In this document: positions 7,148-16,904 of the stretch, one piece after another
How positions within the stretch are numbered: the stretch's first letter is position 1
Layout of the letters: the number at the start of each line of letters is the position of its first letter
IMG/VR virus record: IMGVR_UViG_3300023178_000176
Span: 1 to 31,439 of that record
DNA from: a virus
Length of the DNA stretch: 31,439 bases
Direction: 5' to 3' (one strand)
The notes under the pieces: model-generated
What the model was told of the DNA's origin: nothing
The model's input: the letters and a program-made list of their open reading frames with translations, nothing else
The model's database searches: none
Translations under genes and position numbers: made by a program

Positions 7148-8859
7148 TATACTTGTCCTTCAGGTGGCATAGGTGCTTCTGCTCCTGGTGCAGTACTATT
7201 TATATCTTCTTGTCCTGCCACAGGATCTTCTAAACCGCTTAAATCAGCATCTGCTTCAGGATCTACTATAGCATCTGGTTCTGCTCTAATACCAATATTT
7301 TTAAGATCTAACTGCTTACTAGCATCATCAAATTTCTTGTAATCGTTTTCTTGACGCCATTTTGCTTCGTTTTCTTTAATTTCGCTGTCGCTAAGACCCA
7401 AATATTTTTTAAGTTTAAATTGATTACTCAGATATGGAACTTGTGCTAATTGTGCATACAATTGAGCTCTTTCGTTGTCTAGTGAAAGATCTCTATAACT
7501 GCTAAAGTTCATAGGTGGAGTAAATTTAAGTCTAAACGTGCTGTTGTCTATGTCGACCCCTTTCTTTTTGAGGTACATTTTAAATTCATGATCTAAATCT
7601 TCTTGTACTTGTTTTTGCAGTCTTTCTACATATCTTGCAAATCTATATTCTTGAATGTACGCAATGCCTACTTTGCCGTCGTTATATTGTGCTGATCCAT
7701 CATCTGGTCCTGTTGGCAAATAACTTGCTGGAATACGCAAACCTCTTAATAGTTTGTTATTAAAATATCTTAAATCGTCTATTTGCCCTAAGTTCTCACC
7801 GCCTGGTAGTGTGTCTACTTTTGAACCTCTACCATCTGCTGTTTGTGCAAAGAAGTAGTCCTCCAGCATGCTCATTGGATTATAAGCGGCATCTGCTACG
7901 TTACTACCATCGCCCTTCTTGTTAGGTACACGTTTTTGTTGTACTTCGTATTTTACTTGTTCTAGATACTGACGTGCTTTGTGAGGAGGCATATTACCTA
8001 CATCAATCATAAACACACGTCTTTCAGGTGCTCTATGCACTCTGTAAATGATAATCGAATCTTCTAATAATTCTTTTTGCTTGAACACTTTAAAGATAGG
8101 CTCAAGTATGCTAACACCAAAAGGCCATGCATGATCCATGCCTTCTGTTAAACTAACATGTACAACATGTTTTGCATCTACAGGAACGCCTTGATCTACA
8201 CCGTCAATAGCGCCTGTTAAATAATTGCCAGTAGTAGTTGCTACCGGACTCATTACACCTGTAAGTCCTTGTCCAGCACCATATGGTCTTGCATGTAGTG
8301 GCGCAACATCTGTTGCAACTTGTTCTGCAAAATTAGGCTCTAAGTTTTTAATAAAGTAAGTTTCAATCTTCTTACCTTCACTTTCGTTAACAATTACTTT
8401 TTCGATGTTTGCTGGATCAATCCAAAACAATTCATATGTTTCTGGATCTCTAATAAAGAATTGATCACCGTATTTGCATGTGCTACGAAACATTCTAAAT
8501 GCACGTTTATGCATTTTATTAAGTCTGCACCAGTTTTTAAGTGTTTGAACTAAGATTTTATTTTCTGTATCACTAGGTGTACTATCAAACTCAAACTCAA
8601 AAGGAAGACCTGTAAATTCGTCTTCTTGAGTACCAAATTCTGCAATAGTATCTAAAGCCGCATTTACTTCTAAATCGCTATCCATTTGATCGTACTGTAT
8701 GTAACGCATAAGCCTGTTAGGCGAACCCGCATATACTTCAGGTAACCAACTTGCATATCTACTGCTCGATGCACCTGGGCCACCTGCTTCATTCGGCGAT
8801 TGTACGTTTAACGGTAAACCCGAATTGTCAAATGGTGTAAAATGTTTTCTCCAGCTCAT
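7147..8859 (-). CDS. gp20: Portal vertex protein gp20
   Basis: This 570-residue protein forms the dodecameric portal through which DNA is packaged. It has typical gp20 features: an N-terminal MSWRKHFTPFD, then SRYASWLPEVYAGSPNR, RYIQYDQMDSDLEVNAALD (about residues 52-70), a central HVVHVSLTEG segment, and EDYFFAQTADGRGSKVDTLPG followed by KLLRGLRIPASYLPTGPDD. Its length is near that of T4 gp20 (524 aa). The acidic C-terminal tail (about 515-570) is probably disordered. It heads the head-gene operon. The start at 8859 is supported by an AGGA site (CTAGGAATATTATG). Confidence 0.97.
   Translation of the reverse strand: MSWRKHFTPFDNSGLPLNVQSPNEAGGPGASSSRYASWLPEVYAGSPNRLMRYIQYDQMDSDLEVNAALDTIAEFGTQEDEFTGLPFEFEFDSTPSDTENKILVQTLKNWCRLNKMHKRAFRMFRSTCKYGDQFFIRDPETYELFWIDPANIEKVIVNESEGKKIETYFIKNLEPNFAEQVATDVAPLHARPYGAGQGLTGVMSPVATTTGNYLTGAIDGVDQGVPVDAKHVVHVSLTEGMDHAWPFGVSILEPIFKVFKQKELLEDSIIIYRVHRAPERRVFMIDVGNMPPHKARQYLEQVKYEVQQKRVPNKKGDGSNVADAAYNPMSMLEDYFFAQTADGRGSKVDTLPGGENLGQIDDLRYFNNKLLRGLRIPASYLPTGPDDGSAQYNDGKVGIAYIQEYRFARYVERLQKQVQEDLDHEFKMYLKKKGVDIDNSTFRLKFTPPMNFSSYRDLSLDNERAQLYAQLAQVPYLSNQFKLKKYLGLSDSEIKENEAKWRQENDYKKFDDASKQLDLKNIGIRAEPDAIVDPEADADLSGLEDPVAGQEDINSTAPGAEAPMPPEGQV
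7197..7204 (-). promoter_or_regulatory. Candidate internal late promoter (TATAAATA) in the 3' end of gp20
   Basis: The minus strand reads TATAAATAGT, an exact match to the T4 late -10 element, inside the gp20 coding region and 50 bases before the 66-aa gene. It may boost the small gene and downstream head genes. An 8-mer this AT-rich can occur by chance. Confidence 0.4.
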
Positions 8860-8879
8860 AATATTCCTAGTGTCTATAT

Positions 8880-8908
8880 ATAATACACTATTTATCGTAT
8901 CATGTCAA
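8880..8908 (-). promoter_or_regulatory. Overlapping sigma70-type and late promoters upstream of gp20
   Basis: On the minus strand TTGACA (8903-8908) and TATTAT (8880-8885) are 17 bases apart, and the spacer contains the late element GATAAATA (8889-8896). gp20 begins 20 bases further on. The two signals could give early read-through and strong late expression of the head operon. Confidence 0.65.
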
Positions 8909-8918
8909 GTGGTTTATA

Positions 8919-11900
8919 TTAAATTTGATCTGCTATATTCTTAGACGTACTTATTTGCTGTTTAAGCAGTCTATTTTGTGATCTAGTTTCAGCAAGCAAT
9001 TCTGCTAATAATTCTGCTTGTGTGTCAGTTTCTATCTTATTATCTGCTGATTTCTTTTCGGTTGTTTGTTGTTCAGTAGTCGCGACTTCTTCGGGTTTGT
9101 TTACCGCTGTGCCTTGAGGGCCTGCAGGCTGTGCAAATTGTATTCTTTCACCGGTGTCTGTGTTAGTGTATTGTGCCGCGCCTGCCGCTACTGCTTGCGG
9201 AGCAAATTCTTCACGAGCTTGTGTTTCTGCTTCTTGCATTCGCATTGCTCGTTGACCTCGAGTCATTGTACTGCCTTCAGCACTGTACTCTGCATCTATT
9301 TCTTCTTTTAATTCTTTCCTGCGATCTCTGAATTTGTTATAATTTTCAGAATCATTTTGTGCAAACTTCATTTCACTGAATGAACCGGAGTAATTTACAT
9401 TTTCCAGTGGATTTTGCTTGGCCGCTTGTCCCATATTGGCTACTGCATTGTTAGGCAGTTGCATTTGAACGTCGTTAGGATCAGCACCTATTCGTTGTAG
9501 TGCTTCTGCTCTTTCTTGCTCTGCTTCTGAAACTTTGGTTGGCTTAGCAGTGTCCTCTTCTTCTGCTTGAGGAGTCACTGCTTTCATTGCGGCTAATTTT
9601 AAAAGGTCAACCATGCTAAGGTTATCCATAGATTCGTTTAATCTATCAACACCTTCTGCCATTACTGTGAAGTGACTTCTTATGGAATCACTGTCTATGG
9701 CTTTTGCTGATTCGTTGAATGTTTTAATTGTGTCGTCCATGTTGCCCATGGTATCAGCCATCGCCACAATATGCGGAGCCGCATTACCTATTTTTGCAAT
9801 TTTATCAAACGGTGACTCTGCACCAAACAATTTGCCTAAGCCGTCTAATAATCCACTTATTAAACCGCCGGCACTTAATGCCGCCATGCCTACTGCCATG
9901 CCTATTAATGCAGGGCCTAATGCTAACATGCTTGAAATAGGAACATCTTTAATTGATGCTAAACCTTCGAACAGTGTTTGTATTGCTGGTGCCGCTATGT
10001 TAGCCGCAATGGCAAACGGAATAAGTGCTACACCTAATGCGCCTATTGCTATTGCACCTGGAATAATAAATGGCAGTGCTAATCCTAGCACAGATGCAAG
10101 TACGCCTAATCCGGTGAGTGCAACAAAACCTTTTGCTACATCTTCCCAATTTAAATTGCCAAATACTTCGAATGCTTTTGCCGCAACAAACATTGCGCCT
10201 GATATAACTAGCAGTGCCGCGGAACCTATCAATGCTTTAGGGTTACCTAATGCTTGTAGTCCTTTGCCTAATCCTGTTAATGTGCCTTGTAGTAATGCGC
10301 CTATACCTTTACCGACACCTTTACCGGCTTCCGCTATACCTTTACTTAATGTTGTTATGGCTTTGGATATGCCGCTTGCAAGATTGCTAACCACATTGCC
10401 TAATCCTTTTGATAATGTTGTTAATGCATTGGATACACCTTTTGCAAGATTTGTAAATAAGTCTGCTATGCCTTTACTGATATCTCGCATGCCATCGGCA
10501 AGTGTTTTGGTAAAACGTTGAGATGCTTTGCCTGCTTTTTCCATAGCCTTTGCACCCATGTCGCCTGCAGGGCTTGCACTATTACTTGCACCTGGTAATT
10601 TGCTTTTTAAGAATCCTCCAACCTTGTCGCTAAGTCCTCCTGTGATTTTGCTTAAACCTTTGCCTAATACTCCACCAACTGATTTCAATACGTTGCCTAA
10701 ACCGCCTAGTAAACTCTTTCCTAAACCTGCAATCATGCCTGGTATACCGCTACCGAATGCTTTCATAGCCAATAATACTATACCAACTATGCCGGTTAAC
10801 TTTCCTAATGTACCTGCTAAACTGCCGCCTTCACTTTCAAATAGTCCTGCAAACCACCCTAATAACTCACCGAGTTTAACAAATGGGTATTTGATAATAT
10901 CTATTACAACACCAAAGCCTTCGAACTTTTCAGCAAGATACTCTATTCCGGAAGATAGGCCGTCCCAAAGATAACCGATTCCTGCACCTATTGCACTAAA
11001 AATACTGCCTACTAATCTTAAAGGAATCATTACACCTTCAATAACACCTGATAAAAAGTCAAATGCTATAGTTATTGGTGCTACTGCTAGTTTGATTATA
11101 GTACCTATAGTACTTAATACTGAGAAAAATGATTTAAACCCGTTTACTAACTTAGGTACAAACGCAATCATACCTGCTACAAATTCTGCTACACCTGTAA
11201 TCAATTTAGGCAAGTGCTCTGCAACTTTTTCTCCAAACGATTCTGCACCTCCGGATAAGTCACCAAACACATCGCCCATACCGCCTAAGTCTTTGAATGC
11301 TTTACCTAATGCATCAAAAATAATTTGTTTTGCATCGTTTAATGCATCAGTAAATCTATCTGTACTCCCAACACCTGCAAAGAAAGAATACTTGAATGCA
11401 TCAAACATACCAGTAACTTCTTTTAATATTTTGTTAAAAGTATTAGTACCAGTTTGTACACCTTCCATTGTGAGGTTACTGTTTATGTCTGCAAGACGTC
11501 TTTCACTTTGTTCGAATTGTGTAATGGCTTTTGCCATTGATACTGCTTGAGCATCACCTGCCCTTGCTAGTGCAAACACTCTGTTCTTTTCTGCGGCACT
11601 GAGGTTTCCTAAGCTCATAGTGATTTGGTTACCCATTTCAGCCGCTTGTTCTTGACTTAATGTACCATTTTGAATAGCAGTGATATATTCATTCATTGGT
11701 CCTGCTAAACTAGGTACTGCTCTCACATAGCCTGTCATTTCTTCACTGAAGCCCATAGCACCCATCGATGCCGCTTCTGTGAATGCCGCCGCAATATTAC
11801 CGCCTTCTTCGCCACCCATACCACGCATAGCACTAGCAAAGTCTGTGATACCTGCTGTGACTTTACCTCTAACGTCATTACTAAAACGTATTAATGTAGC

Positions 11901-12884: not shown

Positions 12885-13754
12885 ATGGCTAATAACACAC
12901 AGAATCCATTAAGTGCTTATTTTAGAGCACCAAAATTATATACAGGAATCCCTAGTGCAGGAAAATATTATACACCTGATGTTTGTGAAGTTCCTGATTC
13001 AGGTGAACTACCAATTTTTGCAATGACAGCAAAAGATGAAATGATCATGAAGAATCCGGATGCACTGTTAAACGGTGAAGCAGTAGCACAAGTTATCCAA
13101 AGTTGTGTACCTAACGTAAAAAATGCAAGAAAAATGTTAAGTAGCGATATCGATGTACTGCTAATTGCTATACAAGGTGCAACATATGGTGATGACATTG
13201 ATGTGTCTGCGCCGTGTCCTAAATGCGAACAACCATGCACAGGAACAGCAAGTGTAAACGATGCACTTACCACAATGGGTATTCTAGACGATCTTTACAG
13301 TGTGAAACATGGAGACGATTTAGTAATTAAAGTAAAACCTTTCACATACGCAAGCACAATTAAAGCAGGTATAACCAATTTCCAAAGTACCAGAAGTTTA
13401 CAAGCATTAGCAGATATTCCAGATGAAATGGAAAGATTAAAACTGTTTAATGAAAACTTTAAAGAAATTTCAGCACTTAACTTTGAACTGATTGCAGACA
13501 GTATCCACAGCATTAAGATTGTTGATCAAGATATTGACGTAACAGACAGAAATCAAATTGCAGAATTTTTAGATAATGCAGACAGTAGTGTAGGAAAAGC
13601 AGTAGAAGAAACAATTCAAAAAATTAACGAATCAGGCATCAACACACAAATGCAGTTAGAATGCGAGGCCGAAGAATGTAAAGAAAACGGTGAAACGTTT
13701 AAATTCGTTAGCAAAGTAAACTTTGATCCTGTAAATTTTTTCACGGCTTCCTAG
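12885..13754 (+). CDS. gp26: gp26-type baseplate hub / tail assembly chaperone, zero-frame product
   Basis: This 289-residue protein resembles the T4 baseplate gp26 family (recognised by pattern, not by search). It has an N-terminal IPSAGKYYTPD segment and a conserved helical core (RKMLSSDIDVLLIAIQGATYG, near 82-102). Paired cysteines C111-x2-C114 and C260-x4-C265 could bind zinc. It ends shortly after FDPVNFF. A GGAG site precedes the ATG. The zero-frame stop at 13752-13754 comes 9 bases after a T_TTT_TTC slippery site, so this is probably the shorter of two products, like lambda gpG. It acts in tail assembly in the cytoplasm. Confidence 0.8.
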   Translation: MANNTQNPLSAYFRAPKLYTGIPSAGKYYTPDVCEVPDSGELPIFAMTAKDEMIMKNPDALLNGEAVAQVIQSCVPNVKNARKMLSSDIDVLLIAIQGATYGDDIDVSAPCPKCEQPCTGTASVNDALTTMGILDDLYSVKHGDDLVIKVKPFTYASTIKAGITNFQSTRSLQALADIPDEMERLKLFNENFKEISALNFELIADSIHSIKIVDQDIDVTDRNQIAEFLDNADSSVGKAVEETIQKINESGINTQMQLECEAEECKENGETFKFVSKVNFDPVNFFTAS

Positions 13755-13975
13755 CACGGGCAGAGCCTGAAGAAATTTCCGGTTACCTAGGCAAGCTCAA
13801 ATCAGAACAAGATGCCCTCAACAAAACGATTATCGAGTTGGTAGTCTACAGTGAGGGCTCTGTGTCTTTTTCTGAAGTTTGGCAAATGACATTTGCTGAT
13901 AGACAAAACTTTGTGCAAGTCCTAAATCAATACAATCAAATCAAGTCTGGCAAAAAGCCAACAGAATATCTCTAA
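12885..13975 (+). CDS. Predicted -1 frameshift fusion product (gp26 plus C-terminal extension)
   Basis: If ribosomes slip -1 at 13736-13742 after codon 286, translation continues for 77 codons to the TAA at 13973-13975, giving 363 residues. The extension reads HGFLARAEPEEISGYLGKLK and later FSEVWQMTFADRQNF and IKSGKKPTEYL. The -1 frame is open only from 13727 (a TGA lies at 13724-13726) and has no ATG until about 13885, in the middle of the conserved-looking region, so it cannot easily be a separate gene. The arrangement parallels the G/GT chaperone pair of lambda and may correspond to T4 gp26 plus gp51. The alternative is a sequencing error in the T6 run, which would also yield one 363-residue protein. 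Confidence 0.75.
13736..13796 (+). promoter_or_regulatory. Programmed -1 frameshift signal
   Basis: The heptamer T_TTT_TTC (13736-13742) fits X_XXY_YYZ in the gp26 frame. Downstream, GCTTCCTAG (13746-13754) can pair with CTAGG-c-AAGC (13787-13796): nine pairs with one bulged C and a 32-base loop that itself holds GGC-AGA-GCC. The spacer is only 3 bases, shorter than usual, so the stimulator is less certain than the slip site. Confidence 0.7.
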
Positions 13976-14145
13976 GTCCTATCAAATAAATCAGCCGCAT
14001 TGCATTGTGGTTGACTTCTGCAATTCCTAATATTTCTTTCCCACATTAAATCAGTAGGCATCCAATCGAATTCAGGTAGAATAACATTTGGGTCTAGCGA
14101 AGTACACCCGGTAAGGAATATACTTAATATTAGTAAACGTTTCAT
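13972..14145 (-). CDS. Small lipoprotein (57 aa)
   Basis: The frame from the ATG at 14145 to the TAG at 13972-13974 encodes MKRLLILSIFLTGCTSLDPN and a 37-residue remainder. Lys2-Arg3, a hydrophobic core and the lipobox L-T-G-C14 form a classical lipoprotein signal. The +2 residue Thr suggests outer-membrane sorting. The mature part is about 44 residues and contains C-x5-C (NCRSQPQC). An AGGAG site lies 8 bases before the ATG. The stop codon overlaps the convergent frameshift-product stop. An outer-membrane spanin, a superinfection-exclusion lipoprotein or another envelope protein are all possible. It is not strongly proline-rich as many o-spanins are, and no i-spanin neighbour is seen. Confidence 0.75.
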   Translation of the reverse strand: MKRLLILSIFLTGCTSLDPNVILPEFDWMPTDLMWERNIRNCRSQPQCNAADLFDRT

Positions 14146-14232
14146 TTTTATATCTCCTAGTAATATATTTACTTCTACAAAACGTTTATTTTAATGAATT
14201 AGTTTAATCTGTTACAATTAATTACATTTAAC

Positions 14233-14700
14233 AGACACTTCGTGTCTTATCTTGTTGCGTTCTATCGTTCCGTTTCACTTCACTCGATCACTTACAAGAT
14301 ATTTTTTTATTTAAGAAGTTATCATGAAACTTGAGCCATAATTCACCCGTTGCCGGGTGAAAAAAATATGGTTGTCATCATGATGACTATCGCCATCTCT
14401 AACTCGGGTGCTGTTAAGAAGTGGTGGGCCTTATCTCCTCATACACTACCGTCACTGGTGTCCCACGGAAAATTGTATAACCTTGTAGAGTTCAGTTACA
14501 CAATTTCTCAGGTTGCTTTTTCTCAGAGCCTGAATCGTTCAATACTGTTGTCGTGTGTTTGTATCTCATGTACCGCCATACATTCCAGATCTGACGCCAA
14601 GCAAATGGAGCCTCAAGGAAATCGATATTATATGCCTCGATGGGGTGGTGTATGGACCTATGTGTGTGCCTATGTTAGCCGGGTGTGCCAGATGTGCCTT
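14233..14700 (-). ncRNA. Candidate structured non-coding RNA region
   Basis: The 568 bases between the lipoprotein and the GIY-YIG gene hold no credible protein gene. The 300 bases 14401-14700 are 46% GC by hand count, well above neighbouring intergenic DNA. Hairpins include 14342-14349/14354-14361 (8 bp), 14470-14481/14495-14506 (12 bp), 14508-14512/14529-14533 (5 bp), 14568-14572/14579-14583 (5 bp), 14621-14625/14637-14641 (5 bp), the 14-base palindrome 14374-14387 and 14233-14238/14242-14247 (6 bp). Two details favour the minus strand: its 8-bp hairpin has a GCAA (GNRA) loop, and the 12-bp stem has a G-U wobble there but an A-C mismatch on the plus strand. Ends and family are unknown; no tRNA, tmRNA or intron core was recognised. 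Confidence 0.5.
14248..14308 (+). terminator. Candidate plus-strand terminator downstream of the frameshift gene
   Basis: TATCTTGT (14248-14255) pairs perfectly with ACAAGATA (14294-14301) and is followed by seven T residues. An inner ATCG/CGAT pair (14264-14267 with 14285-14288) shortens the loop. The stem is AT-rich, and it lies 270 bases after the stop codon. It would also stop plus-strand transcription from entering the structured region. Confidence 0.5.
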
Positions 14701-14713
14701 AATCAGTAATTAG

Positions 14714-15142
14714 TTATATGTTAGCCAAACTTTCTTTTAAGATTTTTGAGCCGCCTACTCTCACATTGATAATTCCGTTGTAATAATCGTCTGAAAGCAG
14801 TACTTGTCTGTCAAATTGTTCTTTTGCTTCTAAGTAACTGGCAACTCCTCTACTAGGGCAAAAGTATAGTATTTCACGAATAAAATTGTCTTCTCCATAC
14901 TTTGCTACATCATCTTTTAAATGATCTGAACTGCCCCAATACTCTCGCCAGTCACTTTCTTTAGTGCCTCGCCTTTTGTTCTTTTTGCCTTTTAGTGGTG
15001 GTTTAGTTGTTTTGAATTTTGCTAGTTTTTTACCGACATATTTCATGCCGTTCTTTTTGTTCGTGATTAGATATACGAATGCTTCACATCCTTTTGGTAA
15101 TTCGTTTACTGTATTATCTTTATGTATCCAATCGCTAGGCAT
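14714..15142 (-). CDS. GIY-YIG-like endonuclease-domain protein
   Basis: This 142-residue protein contains FVYLITNKKNGMKYVGKK (about 23-40), which fits the GIY-YIG core as YLI ... YVG with the usual spacing. It continues with a Lys-rich loop, ESDWREYWGSSDHL, and NFIREILYFCPSRG ahead of YLEAKEQ, where the Glu is the likely metal-binding residue. It overlaps the gp46 3' end by 8 bases and so belongs to the gp55-47-46 transcript. Free-standing GIY-YIG proteins in T4-like phages are often homing endonucleases (Seg family), but stable copies in a recombination operon may serve DNA processing. No DNA-binding C-terminal repeat is visible. Confidence 0.75.
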   Translation of the reverse strand: MPSDWIHKDNTVNELPKGCEAFVYLITNKKNGMKYVGKKLAKFKTTKPPLKGKKNKRRGTKESDWREYWGSSDHLKDDVAKYGEDNFIREILYFCPSRGVASYLEAKEQFDRQVLLSDDYYNGIINVRVGGSKILKESLANI

Positions 15143-16904
15143 CTAAATATTCTGTGTCTGTATTGTAGTTTGTAAAGCCACCTTCTTTAACTACTGTCAA
15201 CACATTATTTACACGCCCAATCAATTCTTCTTTGTGAGAAATGAGTAATATGTTTTTGCTTTGCTCTCTATGCATCTTTTTAAGCACCGCAAGTGCATTT
15301 TCTACACCCATTGAGTCCATGCCACTGTCTATAAGTTCGTCTATACACATTAAATTCATAGGCCTATTTAAGCTCTCATACATGTCTCTAAACGCCCAAG
15401 ATAGCCCTAAAATGAGCCTATTTCGTTCACCTCTACTGAGGTTATCAAAGTCTAAGTCACGCCCGTACTCTGTAATTTCGACGCCTAAATCGCTCGCAAA
15501 TTTCACATCATGTGGTAATCCTAACTTGTCTAAATAGTGTGCTAACCGGTGATTTAGGTATGCTATGTTCTGATCTATAATCTTTTTACGGATAAAACTG
15601 TCTTTACTGGTAAGCAATTTGTATAAAAACTCTTGATGATCTTTTAAGTAAGTTAGTTCATTCATTGTTTCGAAACTGATTTCTTGTAAACCTGTTTCTT
15701 TTAAACCTTCGATTTGATCCACATAAGGGTTAATTTCATCTGCTTTATCTTCTAGTTGCGACTTCAATGTTTCTAAGTTATGCCTGTGCTCTAACGCATC
15801 TTCTACCTTAGGATAAAAAGTTTCTACTGTTTCCCCTATTACTCCTAATGCATCTTGCTCGTCTTGTATTTCTTTATCTCTTTTTTTCAAACCGGCAAAG
15901 TATTCTTCCTCTTCTGTAATTTTCTCACGCAACTCTTGTGTGTATGCTTCGTGCGTATCTAAATGTGCTGTACTTTGTTCACAAGCAGGACACACACCTT
16001 CTATTGCTTTTTGTAAGTTATCTTTTAGTGTAGATAGTTTTTCGCTACTTCTTACAATACTTCTATCGTTAACTTCACGCTCGTTGTTTAAGGTTGTAAA
16101 TTTTGTAGATTGCTCTGCAACAAATGTGTTGTGTTTATGCTTGTTAATCTCTGATTGTATATTAATTTCTTGTAACGATGTAATTAATTCTGCAATTTCT
16201 TGTAACTTATCATTGCGTTGTTTGTCCCATGCTCTACTTCTGCTTTCAATTTCTTTAATGTTTTTATCAATACGTTTATTGCTTTCTTCAACAGCATTAA
16301 TTCTAAACTCTTCTTCTTTGATGCTATCTCTAGTACCTTTCATAAGTTCTTTGAGAATTTCTGCTTTTTCTGACAATTCAGTAATACCTAACAACTGCTC
16401 AATCATATCACGTTGATCATTGTTTTTCATTGAAAGGAATGGCTCTGTGTAAGTGTTAAGAGCAATCAAATGCTTAAACATGTTGTGAGGGAAGCCAATA
16501 ATCTTTTCGATTTCTTTTTGTGTTTCTCTGCTGTCTCCTTGTTGCTCTTCGCTAAATGCATCTTCTCCATTTACTAACAACCTTAACACATTAGGTTTAC
16601 GCCCTCGTTCGATACGATACTCTCGACCCTCAATCTCAAAGTCAACAGTAGTCATCATGCCCTTACCGTTTGTTTTATTAATAAGGTTATCACGTCTAAT
16701 GTTTGTTAGTGCTTCACCATACAATGCATAACTGAGTGCATTGATAATAGTAGTTTTACCTGTACCGTTTCTGCTACCGTCTCCACCCATATCTAAGTTA
16801 TGACCGAGAACTAGTGTAAGTTGGCAATTATCAAAATTAACTGCCTGAGTATTGTTACCAATACTCATAAAGTTCTTTGCACTTACATTTTTAATTTTTA
16901 ACAT
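15135..16904 (-). CDS. gp46: Recombination endonuclease subunit gp46 (Rad50/SbcC-like ATPase)
   Basis: This 589-residue SMC-type ATPase works with gp47 to resect DNA ends for recombination-dependent replication and to degrade host DNA. It has a Walker A at 43-51 (GSRNGTGKT), a coiled coil of about 175-300 and 310-400, and a zinc hook C305-P-A-C308. The C-terminal half has the ABC signature LSRGERNR (489-496), Walker B MCIDEL with D522-E523, and a switch His557 (ISHKE). Its length is close to T4 gp46 (560 aa). It overlaps gp47 by one base. All key residues are intact. Confidence 0.97.
   Translation of the reverse strand: MLKIKNVSAKNFMSIGNNTQAVNFDNCQLTLVLGHNLDMGGDGSRNGTGKTTIINALSYALYGEALTNIRRDNLINKTNGKGMMTTVDFEIEGREYRIERGRKPNVLRLLVNGEDAFSEEQQGDSRETQKEIEKIIGFPHNMFKHLIALNTYTEPFLSMKNNDQRDMIEQLLGITELSEKAEILKELMKGTRDSIKEEEFRINAVEESNKRIDKNIKEIESRSRAWDKQRNDKLQEIAELITSLQEINIQSEINKHKHNTFVAEQSTKFTTLNNEREVNDRSIVRSSEKLSTLKDNLQKAIEGVCPACEQSTAHLDTHEAYTQELREKITEEEEYFAGLKKRDKEIQDEQDALGVIGETVETFYPKVEDALEHRHNLETLKSQLEDKADEINPYVDQIEGLKETGLQEISFETMNELTYLKDHQEFLYKLLTSKDSFIRKKIIDQNIAYLNHRLAHYLDKLGLPHDVKFASDLGVEITEYGRDLDFDNLSRGERNRLILGLSWAFRDMYESLNRPMNLMCIDELIDSGMDSMGVENALAVLKKMHREQSKNILLISHKEELIGRVNNVLTVVKEGGFTNYNTDTEYLDA

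Follow-up and report, generated by a model that had tools for sequence, protein, structure and literature searches.

Few phage RNAs are both large and ornate, and none has a known job. The nearest in kind to the RNA considered here are GOLLD, ROOL and a noncoding transcript of the virulent phage ICP1 (PMC12286853, PMC7567579, PMC10383478). In the sections of these papers drawn on here, GOLLD is a large structured noncoding RNA of phages and prophages that rises during lysis and whose function is unknown (PMC12286853, PMC7567579), with many members exceeding 800 nt (PMC12286853); ROOL is a phage-encoded large RNA with several pseudoknots, abundant and, where tested, non-essential (PMC12286853); and the ICP1 RNA, of about 800 nt, lies between gp139 and gp140 and is the most abundant transcript (PMC7567579). 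We describe a block of viral DNA whose product would be a further family of large phage RNAs, one that Rfam 15 lacks and that extends to phages whose contigs measure up to 344 kb.

The window, that is, the whole stretch of 31,439 nt that was analysed, is by its structural, recombination and baseplate genes a piece of a T4-related phage genome. It carries, in this order, genes for the major capsid protein, prohead protease, portal, tape measure, baseplate hub, a SegE-type GIY-YIG nuclease, gp46, gp47 and the late sigma factor gp55, followed by baseplate genes. Among 50,697 cultured phage records, the nearest relatives of its gp46 belong to PA5oct-group Pseudomonas jumbo phages of 285-288 kb (53.6% identity). 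Between the SegE and hub genes (Table 1), an initial annotation made from the sequence alone had marked 14146-14713 as a GC-rich, hairpin-dense block with no gene and a candidate large structured RNA. The profile across relatives places a conserved core at 14236-14690, with conservation dropping off on both sides; the conserved unit as a whole spans about 14233-14705, and the block as first drawn starts 87 nt too early, 14146-14232 being unconserved. The 46% GC counted by hand over 14401-14700 agrees with the measured 46.3%, against 31% and 36% in the adjacent bins, but composition alone carries little information, as the window has four more 300-nt bins that reach 46%. As for the neighbours, the PF19835 match of the SegE-type protein is full-length (positions 1-123 of 123), and this protein of 142 aa barely exceeds the 123-aa nuclease domain, leaving little space for a separate DNA-binding part; the PHROGs name of its family phrog_447, 'NAD synthetase', looks wrong. 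Downstream of the RNA, a 57-codon frame on the minus strand (13974-14145) has a good ribosome-binding site; it has no family match, and its tblastn matches fall in near-identical loci only.

Table 1. Positions of the RNA, its structural elements and its neighbours in the window
Feature	Position	Strand	Remarks
Baseplate hub gene	12885..13754	plus	Convergent; brackets the SegE-RNA cassette on one side
RNA gene	14233..14705	minus	About 470 nt, running from near 14705 (5') to hairpin P11 (3'); from conservation profile, covariation and lack of a reading frame
P11 terminal hairpin	14233..14247	.	Read on the plus strand, a UUCG-type hairpin then T residues
P10 long hairpin	14301-14294/14255-14248	minus	7/8 pairs change on both sides
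R1, downstream copy of direct repeat	14318..14332	minus	Covariation with R2
P9 hairpin	14342..14361	minus	8-bp stem of the initial annotation; between repeats R2 and R1; present in group 2 too
R2, upstream copy of direct repeat	14374..14388	minus	Same-base covariation, top score of all column pairs
Pseudoknot PK1	P6 loop 14490-14487 with 14400-14397	minus	3/4 pairs change on both sides
P7	14451-14449/14407-14405	minus	Within 14405..14466
P8	14441-14435/14421-14415	minus	Within 14405..14466
Pseudoknot PK2	14466-14462/14428-14424	minus	P8 loop with upstream sequence; 3/5 pairs change on both sides
P6 hairpin	14470..14506	minus	12-bp stem of the initial annotation; 12/12 pairs change on both sides
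P5 hairpin	14507..14534	minus	Loop near-invariant (CUCUGAGAAAAAGCAAC); motif also in group 2 and PA5oct
P4 hairpin	14565-14561/14545-14541 (span 14541..14565)	minus	Covariation count
P1 domain	14576..14655	minus	P1 14655-14649/14582-14576; alternative sequences across relatives; encloses P2, P3 and P3a
P3	14619-14617/14586-14584	minus	Inside P1 domain
P3a	14608-14605/14600-14597	minus	Inside P1 domain
P2	14640-14637/14625-14622	minus	Inside P1 domain
Late-promoter-like motif	14711..14718	minus	TATAACTA; just upstream of the RNA; putative function
SegE-type GIY-YIG nuclease gene	14714..15142	minus	Constant upstream partner of the RNA; PF19835, E 4.1e-32
gp46-like recombination nuclease gene	15135..16904	minus	Brackets the SegE-RNA cassette together with the hub gene

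Of 80 IMG/VR loci fetched via gp46, 75 have a homologous block next to that gene; the five loci without it lie on contigs that end less than 0.85 kb from gp46. A sequence pattern taken from the block alone was found in at least 120 viral stretches, at least eight of them chance matches. Of 196 loci compared in all, 182 have the block, and we call this group, to which the window belongs, group 1; the other 14 are the five with contigs ending too soon, phage Melnitz, and eight sharing the pattern by chance. Each of two different sequence patterns occurs in at least about a hundred viral stretches. The predicted RNA is conserved throughout a large clade of (jumbo) phages that are related to T4 and mostly uncultured.

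Covariation among relatives, the test set beforehand for a large structured RNA on the minus strand, is strongly positive. From 153 full-length copies we drew an alignment of 62 sequences differing by more than 5% and applied a home-made test (G statistic with average-product correction) against 20 null alignments preserving tree and column rates. Twelve column pairs exceed all 20 tree-based nulls, of which eight are canonical, while the remaining four fall within the direct repeats; we claim significance solely for such pairs, as many of the second-best ones are non-base pairs that reflect shared ancestry. Over these 62 sequences, a structure of 16 helices and 82 pairs has 98.0% canonical cells (85.6% in shuffles), and 54 of the 82 pairs change on both sides, in 614 cells vs 149.5 in shuffles, although the helices were chosen on the same alignment that was then used for counting and the shuffles ignore relatedness. 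With partners slid, a control that keeps relatedness, the covariation score falls from 0.392 to 0.044-0.095. At least seven hairpins had been predicted, and they are borne out, including the near-perfect 12-nt stem 14470-14481/14495-14506, the perfect 8-bp stem 14342-14349/14354-14361, whose loop on the minus strand is indeed of the GNRA type (GCAA), and 14248-14255/14294-14301. Hairpin P3a (14608-14597) occurs in a small number of strongly differing forms, some short and some long, which are spread over distant lineages as if swapped by recombination.

The strand is set by wobble pairs. The G-U wobble noted in the 12-bp stem on the minus strand is there, and cells with G-U outnumber those with A-C on that strand by 123 to 0 in P8 and by 72 to 5 and 92 to 2 in two parts of P6; because G-U is present but almost never A-C at the variable pairs, the RNA is read from the minus strand. 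A plus-strand RNA was rejected, since both RNAalifold and the G-U to A-C comparison are worse for it. The hairpin P11 is a separate case: in many relatives its plus-strand reading comes directly after the stop codon of the convergent neighbour, and it is likely the terminator of that gene. The folding energy of the whole block is weak (z -1.87 for the minus strand, -0.47 for the plus strand), and 250-nt windows that begin at or after 14401 are no more stable than shuffles. The proof of a structured RNA is thus comparative, not thermodynamic. It could be argued from so weak a z, and from a 119-codon open frame on the plus strand (14350-14709), that the hairpins cluster here by chance or that the block hides a protein gene. 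However, the whole block is conserved with compensatory change, and the frame is broken by indels in 58 of the 62 relatives, with no third-position excess among its changes in the six relatives checked, which rules out a protein-coding reading and leaves the pair of explanations a negligible chance. The initial annotation's statement that there is no gene here thus holds, and the conserved reading frame that it had named as counter-evidence is absent.

More distant relatives were sought in a second group of 80 further loci fetched from PA5oct gp46, on other contigs of up to 344 kb. Model R1, which covers the central domain of the RNA, gave 50 matches in 66 group-2 loci (E up to 5); they are weak, but each lies downstream of gp46 and on its strand. 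A sequence profile likewise gave weak matches in 45 of the 80 loci (E up to 1), with the same strand and position. A further profile, made from these group-2 matches, recognises 56 of the 80 loci with E below 1e-35 and always on the gp46 strand; reciprocally, it matches 67 group-1 loci (best E 2.7e-7). Group 2 has compensatory changes of its own and shares with group 1 the P5 loop, the P9 hairpin and the direct repeats. Five of six large contigs or records contain exactly one copy of the RNA.

Model R2, built from both groups, matches only one of 20 further loci, that of PA5oct. The match lies about 1.9 kb beyond gp46, on the strand of that gene, and covers the whole model at E 0.19. When the PA5oct locus is searched alone, E is 0.01, with a second, worse match at 0.085; a search of the whole PA5oct genome with stricter filters gives no match, and model R1 finds nothing in PA5oct, Phosso, Atu_ph07, SCTP-2 or Melnitz. 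The P5 motif occurs only once in the 287 kb of PA5oct, at the candidate, and is absent from four other large phage genomes. In 11 PA5oct-like records the candidate stretch is at least 99.5% identical and is annotated with small 'hypothetical protein' calls. We regard the cultured PA5oct as carrying a probable, rather than proven, remote homologue of the RNA; if the match is real, the RNA is accessible at once in a P. aeruginosa laboratory phage. Just past the candidate, the noncoding stretch at 7900-8500 of the PA5oct locus (from NC_071039.1) folds strongly, with 250-nt windows down to z -9.5, and a 1.2-kb query over the region hits three places per PA5oct-like genome, so that part of it is repeated. 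In the locus from Sinorhizobium phage Phosso, 1 kb without annotated genes (8410-9425 of the locus) follows gp46 and a Holliday junction resolvase; some of its windows fold at z -4 to -5, it matches neither model R1 nor model R2, and it may perhaps hold an unrelated or very remote RNA. The fold energies of these PA5oct and Phosso gaps were computed and given no weight.

The most constant companion of the RNA is SegE. It lies upstream on the same strand in all 131 group-1 loci with at least 2.5 kb of upstream sequence, no more than 150 nt away in 125 of them, and upstream in all 56 RNA-bearing loci of group 2. SegE occurs without the RNA in phage Melnitz, where the RNA was searched and none was found; in three group-2 loci (L244, L246 and L288) SegE and 0.6-0.9 kb beyond it are present and the RNA was not found, although an inserted gene could hide it. 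In one PA5oct-type relative (L222, 7852-8181) SegE is on the strand opposite gp46, and the RNA was not detected. The pair moves as a cassette. Of the 90 rows, each with a distinct gp46 protein, that were placed on a gp46 tree, 59 carry the RNA on the gp46 strand and 31 on the other; the tree implies five changes of orientation, at least four of them forced by well-supported branches. SegE and the RNA are inverted as one unit, and the gp46 and hub genes on either side of them are convergent. The initial annotation had the RNA read with the gp46/GIY-YIG transcript: it does follow SegE on the same strand, but because the pair has been inverted repeatedly relative to gp46, the RNA is independent of the gp46 transcript. 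In either arrangement the gene downstream of the RNA (hub or gp46) is convergent, so the RNA is not a 5' leader; apart from the 57-codon frame of the window, with matches in near-identical loci only, it does not precede a same-strand gene, as a cis-regulatory leader would.

Such a tight association raises the alternative that the RNA is not independent but belongs to the SegE mRNA as a structured 3' UTR, through which the expression or stability of the nuclease would be controlled. Besides the constant order and short distance in group 1, the RNA begins within about 16 nt of the SegE stop codon in many group-2 loci, and RNA and SegE are jointly absent from two loci (L248 and L257) in which about 5 kb downstream of gp46 is present. 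However, the RNA is intact 585-1560 nt from SegE in six group-1 loci and about 1 kb from it in several group-2 loci (L232, L239, L252 and L291), the PA5oct candidate has no annotated SegE nearby, and a UTR of this length (470 nt), containing two pseudoknots, would be very large. A promoter-like motif also bears on the question. ATAASTA stands just upstream of the RNA in 50 of the 62 group-1 rows (three of the 12 without a match read CTAAGTA), and it stays with the RNA, not with SegE, where another gene separates them (L118, L091 and L164). It resembles GATAAATAG, found ahead of the portal, tape measure and hub genes of the window phage; the T4 late promoter is TATAAATA. Late transcription of the RNA is suggested by this motif alone. 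No motif of the ATAASTA type was seen upstream of the RNA in group 2; given this, and the closeness of the RNA start to the SegE stop codon, the RNA of that group may be a SegE 3' UTR. For the family as a whole, we consider the UTR reading unlikely.

No known RNA family accounts for the block. Rfam covariance models, including GOLLD, ROOL and group I and group II introns, gave no match at gathering scores in the window or in 12 relatives, nor in the group-2 RNAs, and at E up to 5 the RNA itself gave nothing beyond weak chance matches; UnaL2 (E 4.7) and Arthropod_7SK (E 1.4) were dismissed as such. ARAGORN finds no tRNA or tmRNA in the window and none in 13 further loci. BLASTN with five family members found no convincing match to the RNA in cultured phages, one to Vibrio phage Yong XC31 (E 0.2) being rejected as it falls inside an annotated gene, and one sequence pattern per group has no exact match in the bacterial genomes of the GTDB species set. 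A literature search, mostly outside subscription journals, yielded no description of such an RNA in phages, jumbo phages or PA5oct. A GIY-YIG endonuclease partner, recurrent cassette inversion and a pseudoknotted core might bring to mind a ribozyme or a degenerate mobile intron spread by SegE, that is, a group I-like element reduced to an intergenic RNA. Yet neither a group I nor a group II model matches, and the RNA lies between whole genes in both orientations and interrupts none, leaving no split gene to splice; we hold this origin to be quite improbable.

The strongest covariation of all does not come from base pairing. Two direct repeats of 13 nt, R2 and R1, flank P9, and positions 14381 and 14325 within them read AA, GG or TT together (score 101). 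At the six variable positions scored, R1 and R2 are equal in 61 of the 62 rows, vs 10.8 by permutation, with seven or eight different repeat cores across the rows; the sole discordant row is probably an extraction artefact, showing the same core on direct display, yet it was counted as different. Fixed differences between the repeats persist, with GATG in R2 vs GATA in R1 and an extra base in R2, which makes simple copying of one repeat onto the other unlikely. The co-changing continues in group 2, where one row breaks the pattern. Most simply, we infer that a single partner may be bound twice. Among the column pairs, no third segment of the RNA stands out as covarying with both repeats. A search of the flanks in 42 loci for targets scored a phage's own repeat at a best match of 10.33, as against 10.30 for the repeats of other variants, and six contigs of 183-344 kb hold no further exact copy and no clear excess over a backwards control.

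Direct repeats of this kind resemble paired protein-binding sites, and together with the fixed place beside the recombination genes gp46 and gp47 and the inversion of the cassette they could suit an element that acts at the DNA level, such as a replication origin or a recombination or packaging site, with hairpins working as single-stranded DNA. The one-sided excess of G-U pairs and the pseudoknots are, however, the signature of a single-strand folded RNA, and we give a DNA element a very slim chance. The repeats could also be read as part of one system with SegE, in which a compact GIY-YIG nuclease would use, or be controlled by, a large RNA, and the twin 13-nt segments would serve as interchangeable sequences that recognise a target, either of the host or of competing phages. 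If this were true, the twin segments would be rewritten together as the target changes, and IscB and other nucleases with an RNA partner would have a GIY-YIG counterpart in this system. The repeat variants require 17 changes on the SegE tree and also 17 on the gp46 tree (five rows labelled ACAA are probably mislabelled), which gives no sign either way of co-evolution between repeats and SegE. A single system of this sort strikes us as a long shot; most likely, SegE is a mobile companion whose homing maintains the cassette in the population, and it is not part of the RNA machinery.

Our own leaning, a modest one, is towards a stand-alone, pseudoknotted noncoding RNA of about 470 nt on the minus strand that would be made late and act in trans. 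Transcription late in infection might start, in the window's group, at a late-type promoter belonging to the RNA itself, or else result from read-through from SegE. The product might then work as a folded RNA or an RNP, and we infer action in trans from the opposite orientation of the gene that follows the RNA. The twin repeats around P9 would offer two docking sites to one partner that changes from phage to phage. Since no phage DNA site was found, we propose that this partner is a protein, an RNA of the host or, in an oligomer, a second copy of the RNA itself.

In style this RNA is like GOLLD and ROOL, and by the Rfam tests it is unrelated to both. Like GOLLD it is large, structured, noncoding and phage-borne, but at about 470 nt it is without an Rfam match and is paired with SegE, and whereas GOLLD often lies near tRNA genes, ARAGORN found none here. 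It shares with ROOL several pseudoknots, PK1 and PK2 in this case, a likeness of style only, and it differs in the same lack of an Rfam match, its position away from tRNA genes, its SegE companion and its twin co-changing repeats. The ICP1 RNA, at the start of the lysis cluster rather than beside gp46, is set apart by description only. Constant pairing of a structured RNA with an endonuclease gene is otherwise a feature of HEARO, the omega RNA associated with IscB; there the likeness lies in the pairing, while the nuclease of the present cassette is GIY-YIG, not HNH/RuvC, the RNA is downstream of it, and no Rfam model matches. Its neighbour is instead comparable with the free-standing Seg-type homing endonucleases of T4, being a SegE-type GIY-YIG protein (PF19835) that Melnitz has without the RNA, and we know of no such RNA companion in T4. 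The near-constant nuclease partner and the twin repeats rewritten together are two handles that GOLLD and ROOL lack, and the jointly rewritten repeats point to a specific partner that can be sought.
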